Below are positions 29,400-31,520 of a stretch of 64,000 nucleotides of DNA, in pieces. The stretch covers positions 682,001-746,000 of the forward strand of contig NZ_OY782759.1 in the NCBI RefSeq assembly GCF_963678195.1, read 5' to 3'. Numbering within the stretch: position 1 is the stretch's first letter; each line of letters opens with the position of its first letter. The notes beneath the pieces were generated by a model, which saw only the letters and a list, made by a program, of their open reading frames with translations, made no database searches and was not told the origin of the DNA. This stretch comes from an uncultured Hyphomonas sp. Lineage in GTDB: Bacteria > Pseudomonadota > Alphaproteobacteria > Caulobacterales > Hyphomonadaceae. A program made the translations under genes and the position numbers.

Positions 29400-29696
29400 A
29401 TGATGACCAAGACAATCGGTGCTGATGCGGCCGTGCTGGCCCTCAAGGGCTGGACGAAAGGCGAGGGCGAGCGCGACGAGATCACCCGCACGTTCCGCTT
29501 CGACGATTTCAAGCAGGCCTTCGCCTTCATGAGCGCCGTGGCCCTGAAGGCCGAGCAGATGGATCACCATCCTGAATGGTCGAATGTCTACAACCGTGTC
29601 GAGGTCGTGCTGACCACGCATGACGCGGACGGTGTCACGACGCGGGACCTGGAACTCGCCGGGTACATGGACGCGCTGGCGGCCCGGCTGGCCTGA
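29400..29696 (+). CDS. phhB: 4a-hydroxytetrahydrobiopterin dehydratase
   Basis: A 98-residue pterin-4a-carbinolamine dehydratase. The active-site pattern [19 protein letters not shown] contains the paired histidines and the following histidine-binding region, and the [13 protein letters not shown] helix is typical. It dehydrates the carbinolamine formed by phenylalanine hydroxylase and regenerates the pterin cofactor. No phhA gene lies in the window. The start is the first of two adjacent ATG codons right after the preceding stop. Confidence 0.93.
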
Positions 29697-29850: not shown

Positions 29851-29870
29851 TGTCACTGGGTCAGGTGACA
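29851..29870. promoter_or_regulatory. TGTCAC / GTGACA inverted repeat before the PhyR-like gene
   Basis: TGTCAC (29851-29856) and GTGACA (29865-29870) are a perfect 6-bp inverted repeat with an 8-bp spacer. They end 33 bp before the ATG at 29904, close to where a promoter or leader would lie. It is either an operator or a weak leader hairpin. Confidence 0.35.
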
Positions 29871-29903
29871 TACTGCCTGTCCAAAGCGCGCTAAGAGACG
29901 CAG

Positions 29904-30635
29904 ATGATCTGGGAACAACCCTACGAGACCAATCTGGACCGGCTCCGGCGCTATGCGGCTTTTGCGTGCGGCAGCCAGGGGCTGGGCGATGGTGTCCTGT
30001 CGGAAGCGCTGGAAGACGTGCTGGACACGGTCTCCTCCGCCCGCAGCACCAATCTGGTCCTGTTGTTCGAGATTCTGGACGCAACCCTGCGCAAGACACC
30101 GCCGGGCGCCGAGTCGCTGTTTGAAGGCCTTGGCCGATGGCAGAAGCTGAGCCCGCTGGAGCGCCGCGTGACCCTCCTGTGCCTGCTCGAAGAGTTCGAC
30201 TTCCGGGAAGTGGCGCGGATCACCTGTCTTGGCCGGGGGGAGGTCAAAGCCATGTTCGGGCGCGCCCGCATGCTTTATGCGGATCGCTTTCCGGCGCGGA
30301 TTGGCCTTGTCGGCGGCAGTGAAGCCGACCGCGCCGCCATCGGGGCTGCGGCCCAGACGTGCGGGTACAGGCTGCTCTGGACGGCAGAGCCGGATGGCGA
30401 AGCCACCCTGGACGGGCTGCCGCCTGCCAGCCTGATCCTGGTCGCGCATGAGGGGACCGATCCGGAGCAGGGGCTCAGCCTCTGCCGGGGCTATGCCGGT
30501 CCGGTCGTCCTGGCACATACGGGCGCAGAAAATGTGCGGCTGAGCGCCCGGCACTGGACACTGCCGCCCGCTGACCTGCAAGACGCGACCCTGCTGAACA
30601 GCGTTTTCATCCGCGCGCTGCTTTTTTCCGACTGA
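29904..30635 (+). CDS. PhyR-like protein with degenerate receiver domain
   Basis: A 243-residue protein with the architecture of PhyR, the anti-anti-sigma response regulator of the alphaproteobacterial general stress response. Residues 1-125 form a sigma-factor-like domain, including a sigma-4-like LSPLERRVTLLCLLEEFDFREVARI-type segment (82-106). Residues 132-243 match the receiver by length and hydrophobic pattern (ARIGLVGGSEADRAAIG). The phosphorylation site is lost: the acidic pocket is GGSE (137-140), the phospho-Asp position reads VAHEG (180-184), and the conserved lysine is absent. A constitutive or phosphorylation-independent role is inferred. No nepR or ecfG gene is adjacent. Confidence 0.7.
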   Translation: MIWEQPYETNLDRLRRYAAFACGSQGLGDGVLSEALEDVLDTVSSARSTNLVLLFEILDATLRKTPPGAESLFEGLGRWQKLSPLERRVTLLCLLEEFDFREVARITCLGRGEVKAMFGRARMLYADRFPARIGLVGGSEADRAAIGAAAQTCGYRLLWTAEPDGEATLDGLPPASLILVAHEGTDPEQGLSLCRGYAGPVVLAHTGAENVRLSARHWTLPPADLQDATLLNSVFIRALLFSD

Positions 30636-30743: not shown

Positions 30744-31520
30744 ATGGGACGGGTTTCAGGCAAAATGGCATTCATCACCGGCGGCGCGCAGGGGCTGGGT
30801 GAAGCGACCGCCCGCATGTTCGCGCGCGAAGGGGCGAAGGTCACCGTGACCGACATCAATGGCGCAGGCGCCGAAGCCGTCGCGGCCTCCATCAATAAAG
30901 AACACGGCGCCGGAACGGCCTTTGCCTGGCAGCATGACGTCACCGATGGCGAGCGCTGGCAGGAAGTCCTGAAAGGCGCCTATGAGGCGATGGGCGGCCT
31001 GAACGTGCTGGTCAACAATGCCGGCATCGGTTCGCTCGGCTCTGTTGAAGACGAGAGCTACGAGACTTTCAAACACGTCCAGACCGTGGACGTGGATTCG
31101 ATCTTCCTCGGTTGCAAATACGCCATCCCGATGATGCGCGATCATGGGCTCGGCTCGATCATCAACATCTCGTCCATCGCCGGCATCATCGCGAGCGGAA
31201 ACTATGTGTCCTACAACACGGCCAAGGCGGCGGTGCGGCACATTTCGAAGTCGATCGCGCTGCATTGCGCCAAGTCGACCGGCGGCCAGATCCGCTGCAA
31301 CTCGGTGCACCCGGTCTTCATCAATACGCCGATCCTGGACCGCACCAAGGAAATGTTCGGCGAGGAAGAAGCCCTTGCGAAACTCGGCCGCCAGATCCCG
31401 CTCGGCAAGGTCGGCGAGCCGGACGACATCGCCTATGCCGTGCTCTATCTCGCCTCGGACGAGTCGAAACTCGTCACCGGCATCGAGCTGAAGGTGGATG
31501 GCGGCATCTCTGCGATGTAG
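30744..31520 (+). CDS. Classical short-chain dehydrogenase/reductase
   Basis: A 258-residue classical SDR. Motifs are TGGAQGLG near the N-terminus, NNAGIG, the catalytic serine in IINISSIAG, YNTAK, and a C-terminal GIELKVDGG. The D-I-N after the second strand (VTVTDING) suggests NAD rather than NADP preference. The substrate is unknown; the pattern is like 3-hydroxyacyl or 3-beta/20-beta hydroxysteroid dehydrogenases. A strong AGGAGG ribosome site precedes the ATG. A lipoprotein gene follows 33 bp later. Confidence 0.92.
   Translation: MGRVSGKMAFITGGAQGLGEATARMFAREGAKVTVTDINGAGAEAVAASINKEHGAGTAFAWQHDVTDGERWQEVLKGAYEAMGGLNVLVNNAGIGSLGSVEDESYETFKHVQTVDVDSIFLGCKYAIPMMRDHGLGSIINISSIAGIIASGNYVSYNTAKAAVRHISKSIALHCAKSTGGQIRCNSVHPVFINTPILDRTKEMFGEEEALAKLGRQIPLGKVGEPDDIAYAVLYLASDESKLVTGIELKVDGGISAM

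Follow-up and report, generated by a model that had tools for sequence, protein, structure and literature searches.

In the accepted model of the general stress response (GSR), phosphorylation of PhyR is the gate. Work on Rubellimicrobium thermophilum casts doubt on that role: its RT-PhyR' binds NepR unphosphorylated and has been proposed to function independently of phosphorylation, and the protein has retained the aspartate (D191), reacts to BeF3 and sits in a typical GSR locus (PMC12148442). PhyR paralogues also share a genome in Sinorhizobium meliloti, whose RsiB1 and RsiB2 differ from the case presented here in being described as redundant in vivo (PMC4814048).

Here we describe a gene in a stretch of 64,000 nucleotides from an uncultured Hyphomonas sp. 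(contig NZ_OY782759.1, positions 682,001 to 746,000; the window). Its product resembles canonical PhyRs of Caulobacter, Brucella, Bartonella and Sphingomonas in the order of its domains, in its sigma-like motifs and in a receiver fold (predicted here), and differs from them in lacking the acidic pair, the phospho-accepting Asp and the conserved Thr and Lys, in not lying beside nepR or ecfG, and in having no EcfG-type promoter that we could find. The missing chemistry residues also set it apart from RT-PhyR', the nearest measured precedent (PMC12148442). Among the matches listed in the open-licence literature for PhyR variants, for Hyphomonas with stress or LuxR, and for PhyR with quorum sensing, we found no PhyR without the phospho-accepting Asp. 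We put at about 50% the probability that this protein acts as a PhyR without phosphorylation, by binding NepR, under transcriptional control that possibly involves a LuxR-type regulator. A natural PhyR that lacks the chemistry residues, is kept in a lineage and has its own control site lets one ask whether NepR is bound unphosphorylated in cells, and whether the GSR can be entered by transcription.

The receiver half reads GGSE at residues 137–140 and VAHEG at residues 180–184, and the conserved Thr and Lys are lost as well, in agreement with the initial annotation, which had read the protein as a PhyR paralogue that cannot be phosphorylated in the normal way. Across ten orthologues, the window protein included, the Glu-Asp pair has become Gly-Gly in eight, Gly-Ala in one and Gly-Val in one, and the phospho-Asp column holds Ala in seven, Val in two and Asp in one (L023, in which the rest of the pocket is absent). 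Lys is present at its column (residue 222, aligned by eye) in one orthologue, L018, and Thr in one, L024, in an alignment of the orthologues with other PhyRs; the PhyR-wide alignment opens gaps at both columns. Near β3 of L024 two alignments disagree (Asp versus Val, with insertions and an unsure register), and the Val version is used here. The complete set of phosphorylation residues thus occurs in none of the ten orthologues, single residues surviving in these three. Among 59 other full-length PhyRs (distinct rows among the fetched loci, 58 from the genus and L031 from a related genus, rather than every PhyR of the genus), 57 retain Glu-Asp, Asp, Thr and Lys; the exceptions are L036, which has lost the Lys, and L038. 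A substitute aspartate was considered and rejected: the sole acidic column of the C-terminal half common to all ten orthologues, D/E227, adjoins the C-terminal helix.

Erosion extends well beyond the pocket. Only 6 of the 41 receiver-half columns that are conserved in canonical PhyRs (at least 90% conserved in 58 other full-length PhyRs, L038 excluded) are kept in at least nine orthologues, and 25 are kept in at most one. No Pfam receiver match is listed for residues 131–243 at E-values (E) up to 10; with the same library, Response_reg scores above its cut-off in all three canonical PhyRs of the window genome. By model, the receiver fold nevertheless seems to have outlasted the phosphorylation residues. 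AlphaFold returns a receiver fold for this half alone, with a predicted local distance difference test score (pLDDT) of 85.7 and a predicted template modelling score of 0.81, and the predicted structure matches receivers, although Foldseek alone gives E 0.0022 at best. The best structural matches of the whole-protein model include the PhyR entries 9by5, 9cb6, 5uxw, 3n0r and 4g97. A receiver fold without phosphorylation residues makes the window protein, on these models, an atypical (pseudo-receiver) response regulator.

The sigma-like half is recognisably that of a PhyR. Residues 9–134 match the PhyR profile NCBIfam NF006623 at E 2.8e-10 (40.4 bits against a curated cut-off of 240). The Pfam family PhyR_sigma2 (PF22029) is matched at E 3.2e-05 (24.3 bits against a cut-off of 27), rising to 27.0 bits, just at the cut-off, in a six-frame genome search, and PF22233 is matched at E 0.0083, below its curated cut-off. 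A profile–profile comparison of the orthologues' sigma-like half with the N-terminal half of canonical PhyRs gives E 2.2e-20. All nine matches to solved structures are PhyRs or PhyR parts, eight of them by name and the ninth being 3t0y. Of the 23 sigma-like columns conserved in canonical PhyRs, 16 are kept in at least nine orthologues. A tree places the dead-receiver clade on the PhyR side rather than the EcfG side with a branch support of 100/100, from few columns and with long branches that drew a warning from the tool. By these comparisons the window protein is PhyR-derived, and it may act like a permanently active or dosage-controlled PhyR. We nonetheless withhold the label of PhyR response regulator, because it lacks the residues for the defining phosphorylation chemistry and scores below the full-length cut-off of NF006623. 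The proposed PhyR layout of a sigma-like domain followed by a receiver was borne out, by profile matches for the first and by structural modelling for the second: the C-terminal half is still receiver-like, the gene is not the only PhyR of its genome, and no functional alternative aspartate emerged.

We searched 120 genomes, the window's own included and 42 of them from the genus, with a match threshold of E 1e-6. The gene occurs in ten; the nine other orthologues are 37–94% identical to it and all lie within the genus, and 12 further genomes with matches contain other PhyRs only. A scan of 84,980 named species returned five relatives, titled Hyphomonas or Hyphomonadaceae, and no new orthologue; this pattern-based scan missed the orthologues of G041, G007, G019 and G004, and so is no proof of absence. 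A plasmid search for the gene gave no match. The reading frame is intact in all ten orthologues. For nine pairs chosen of 45 (with a synonymous rate, dS, above 1 in the most distant), the ratio of nonsynonymous to synonymous rates (dN/dS) of the N-terminal half is 0.17–0.36 in eight and 0.60 in one with few changes, and that of the C-terminal half is 0.19–0.70. This is more than a chance open reading frame, given its presence in 10 of 120 genomes, its conserved gene order in the nine others and dN/dS below 1 in nine pairs; by these sequence measures it is kept under purifying selection in one Hyphomonas lineage. The gene does change fast (seven more distant orthologues are 36–60% identical, whereas their neighbour genes are mostly 70–98%, one down to 52%), and 32 of the 42 genus genomes have no orthologue at E 1e-6 or better, as might be expected of a decaying or useless gene; with the frame intact in every orthologue, dN/dS below 1 and a conserved promoter-like site, we consider that explanation very improbable.

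Selection on the C-terminal half also bears on whether the receiver has been turned into another sensor, for a ligand or a partner protein, which would then be the main input instead of gene expression. This half is not neutral in the nine pairs computed, W159, W218 and A238–F241 are invariant among the orthologues, and its models lack a helix after β2 and after β4. Against this, no conserved pocket or motif was recognised, and the C-terminal half changes faster than the N-terminal half (mean identity 46% versus 62%), so that we regard a new sensor as improbable.

The phosphorylation-independent reading draws its proposed input from a 20-bp palindrome upstream of the gene. Its pattern, TGTC(A/C)C-N8-G(G/T)GACA, starts 52–54 bp 5' of the ATG in all ten orthologues and is exact in eight, with one mismatch in L018 and L023; in none of 300 mononucleotide shuffles per orthologue was an equally good palindrome found. 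A TA dinucleotide stands exactly 21 bp 3' of the palindrome in ten of ten, and the rest of the 200 bp upstream is hardly conserved among distant orthologues. In L022, L023 and L024 a second copy lies 74–105 bp upstream (with one mismatch in L024). Exact sites number 29 in the ten gene-bearing genomes (19 without those before the gene) against 4 for a reversed-pattern control, and 24 in the 32 genus genomes without the gene against 15 for the control. The fixed place and these genome-wide counts outweigh the shuffles as evidence, because the pattern was drawn from the same orthologue sequences. This conservation, a feature absent from the initial annotation, suggests that the input has shifted to transcription.

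Direct control by EcfG is disfavoured. Upstream of the dead-receiver gene the EcfG promoter pattern GGAAC-N15-17-CGTT is unmatched, and the closest sequences before the orthologues deviate at two or three of its nine letters and share no position near the start codon. The window genome (3.67 Mb, a single contig, genus Hyphomonas) holds three canonical PhyRs, three NepRs and two EcfG-like genes. Two of the PhyR genes sit in clusters, phyR1 with nepR1 and phyR2 with nepR2, each accompanied by its own EcfG-like gene and its own kinase gene, a histidine kinase gene in the case of phyR1 (EcfG and kinase names are read from the translations); an orphan phyR3 and an orphan nepR3 lie about 27 kb apart. 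The dead-receiver gene is away from nepR and ecfG, with no NepR match within the 64-kb window, but isolation is not a strict criterion, as orphan canonical PhyRs such as L002 illustrate. That distance, together with the unmatched promoter pattern and a change faster than that of the neighbours, would suit a sigma-like half that serves another partner, such as another anti-sigma factor of the extracytoplasmic function (ECF) type, outside the GSR. No candidate partner was recognised among the neighbour genes read, however, and NepR is present in all ten gene-bearing genomes (two or three copies), a weak point since 24 of the 32 without the gene also have it; we hold this explanation to be improbable.

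Two kinds of LuxR-type genes connect the palindrome to a possible regulator. The first, LuxR1, has Autoind_bind and GerE domains and, with at least 75% identity to the copy in G007, is found in nine of the ten genomes with the dead-receiver gene, the tenth (G027, 74% complete) giving a 37% match only. LuxR1 also occurs at 67–83% identity in G028, G013, G017 and G009 and, being found in gene-bearing genomes and in these four alike, is probably older than the dead-receiver PhyR in the lineage. In G004, G006 and G007, 4 bp separate the end of the palindrome from the start codon of LuxR1; G019 has the same arrangement with one mismatch. In G032 a gap of 4 bp likewise follows the palindrome, there ahead of the probable GTG start of a second LuxR-type gene, only 35% identical to LuxR1, whose product was placed by similarity. 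LuxR-type operators (lux boxes) are likewise 20-bp dyads near a promoter, and the textbook lux box lies near −42. The letters of the palindrome differ from those of the textbook lux box, and binding here is putative. Plausibly, then, the palindrome is a LuxR-type operator and the dead-receiver gene its putative target.

The mechanism that we favour is of a PhyR-derived anti-anti-sigma factor that would no longer take its signal through phosphorylation. Because the degenerate receiver would no longer hold the sigma-like half shut in the normal way, that half could bind one or more of the three NepRs unphosphorylated. The input would be how much protein is made, as determined by a regulator at the palindrome: synthesis would titrate NepR and free EcfG to some degree with no kinase involved. 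This regulator may be of the LuxR type, because in relatives the palindrome stands directly ahead of two kinds of LuxR-type genes. An activator of that type would also be suited to a palindrome whose centre lies some 43 bp 5' of the start codon, with a possible −10 element in the interval. In its fullest form, a cell-density or small-molecule signal would act through the LuxR-type regulator on a chemistry-free PhyR that titrates NepR, giving the alphaproteobacterial GSR a second, kinase-free input in which dosage replaces phosphorylation; we offer this chain tentatively and think it unlikely as a whole. If the LuxR link is true, cell–cell or chemical signalling is joined to stress in Hyphomonas. 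The initial annotation had proposed a new branch of the general stress response, which stays plausible and depends on the predicted binding of NepR.

Several observations weigh against the phosphorylation-independent reading. Binding of NepR by the dead-receiver protein is predicted from sequence, and loss of the phosphorylation residues alone does not tell an open from a closed protein. The whole-protein AlphaFold model is moderate (pLDDT 72.8), and in profile–profile comparison the receiver halves match weakly (probability 1.8%, E 0.027, score 17.6 against 8.98–15.14 in 20 column shuffles). The tree was built on few columns, and the dead-receiver clade is a long branch in it. Of the 23 conserved sigma-like columns, five survive in no more than one orthologue, so the affinity for NepR may have changed. 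These five changes and the long stem of the clade (2.71 changes per column) are also what an antagonist might look like, whether a decoy whose sigma-like half competes for NepR without freeing EcfG or a brake locked shut by its degenerate receiver. Antagonists on the NepR side of this circuit are known, NepR2 of S. melonis being a paralogue that can act as a brake (PMC6599016). The orthologues do retain RLxRYA...CG....GD, the core motif, as well as most of the conserved sigma4-like positions, which argues the other way, and we judge an antagonist unlikely.

The upstream site has its own difficulties. One match with at most one mismatch occurs in the window (chance expectation 0.40), which is not rare by chance in 64 kb (33 of 100 shuffles); the pattern was derived from the orthologues themselves, and a site that several genomes have inherited from a common ancestor enters the count once per genome. 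The palindrome also precedes an unrelated gene of 80 amino acids, once in a genome without the dead-receiver PhyR. Nine of the 13 LuxR1 orthologues, that of the window genome included, have no palindrome before them, nor have six further LuxR-type genes that were checked, so that the link rests on few relatives, and the G032 start codon is our own reading, a longer frame covering the palindrome. No luxI was seen among three open reading frames around luxR, and no genome-wide search for luxI was made. The palindrome could possibly act as an mRNA hairpin (folding z −1.15 over 75 nt and −2.02 over 36 nt, equalled by 28 and 8 of 200 shuffles, respectively); a DNA site fits better, because second copies lie upstream in three orthologues.

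Table 1. Features of the dead-receiver locus, in window coordinates
Feature	Position	Strand	Basis
phhB, pterin-4a-carbinolamine dehydratase, upstream neighbour	29400..29696	+	Pfam PF01329; conserved neighbour
20-bp palindrome TGTCACTGGGTCAGGTGACA, putative operator	29851..29870	.	Fixed place in 10/10 orthologues
TAAGAG, possible −10 element	29892..29897	+	TA invariant in 10/10; −10 reading inferred
PhyR-like gene with dead receiver, 243 amino acids	29904..30635	+	ATG start; open reading frame, orthologues and neighbour order
Sigma-like half, residues 1–130, sigma2-like and sigma4-like regions	29904..30293	+	Profile matches
Degenerate receiver half, residues 131–243	30294..30632	+	6/41 conserved columns kept; AlphaFold; structural matches
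G137-G138 replacing the acidic pair Glu-Asp	30312..30317	+	Alignment of orthologues and PhyRs
A181 replacing the phospho-accepting Asp	30444..30446	+	Alignment of orthologues and PhyRs
Short-chain dehydrogenase/reductase (SDR) oxidoreductase, downstream neighbour	30744..31520	+	Pfam PF13561; conserved neighbour

The gene order phhB, dead-receiver gene, SDR gene holds in all nine other orthologue genomes (Table 1); in G027 the space from phhB to the dead-receiver gene is longer by over 1 kb. We fetched 30 phhB loci, 10 with the gene and 20 without; of the latter, 16 showed no such downstream SDR gene and four (G028, G017, G009 and G013) have phhB and the SDR gene adjacent, 106–112 bp apart with nothing between, and 12 further genomes were left unread. 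A tree of seven neighbour genes groups G028 with the ten gene-bearing genomes, its inner branching, including the place of G028, being unsettled. The distribution of the gene is explained by a single gain or by a gain together with a loss; a gain after the split from G028 and a precise loss are both possible. In other Hyphomonas a PhyR lies 7–12 kb from phhB: with an intact receiver and a kinase-like neighbour, at 8–12 kb, in G016, G023 and G039 (L183–L185), shortened in G014 and in pieces in G024 and G038. Descent from such a PhyR was considered and set aside: the join in the tree is open, these PhyR genes are oriented differently, and their closeness to phhB may be fortuitous.

The palindrome has three exact places in the whole window genome. 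The 29 exact sites of the gene-bearing genomes, sorted by hand, comprise 10 before the gene, 9 before the 80-amino-acid gene, 3 before LuxR1, 1 before the second LuxR-type gene, 4 within a reading frame and 2 others. The second conserved place (site B) lies about 275 bp before the 80-amino-acid gene, which has no Pfam match, and is represented by L201 (G000:C1:2633445-2633464), L203, L204, L211, L215, L219 and L249. Six of its nine places were read, those in G007, G036 and G041 being assigned by their spacer letters alone. At site B the half-sites are kept and the spacer varies, likewise in G025, which has no dead-receiver PhyR, and a tRNA-Val gene stands on the other side in five of the six loci scanned. 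A further site (site D, in G000, G036, G041 and G033) falls, as we read it, within a reading frame and was not treated as regulatory.

The orphan nepR3 of the window genome encodes 69 amino acids (G000:C1:3505265-3505363; L078:7197-7403), and several relatives have a NepR at a similar distance from an orphan PhyR. Eight of the 42 Hyphomonas genomes (G021, G038, G018, G001, G010, G011, G024 and G022, two of them less than 90% complete) have no NepR match at E 0.001; in G024 and G038 the PhyR matches are split into separate pieces, as might be seen during decay of the stress system.

L038 of G033 (G033:C2:282391-282945) is, like the window protein, a second PhyR with a damaged receiver, with Lys-Gly for the acidic pair, Glu for the phospho-accepting Asp and Thr for the Lys, the conserved Thr being kept. 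It differs in grouping with the phyR2 type (L004, support 100/99), and so arose independently of the dead-receiver clade; the Glu at its phospho-Asp position could mimic phosphorylation. L036, the PhyR of G005, has its acidic pair, Asp and Thr intact, with the conserved Lys replaced by Thr.
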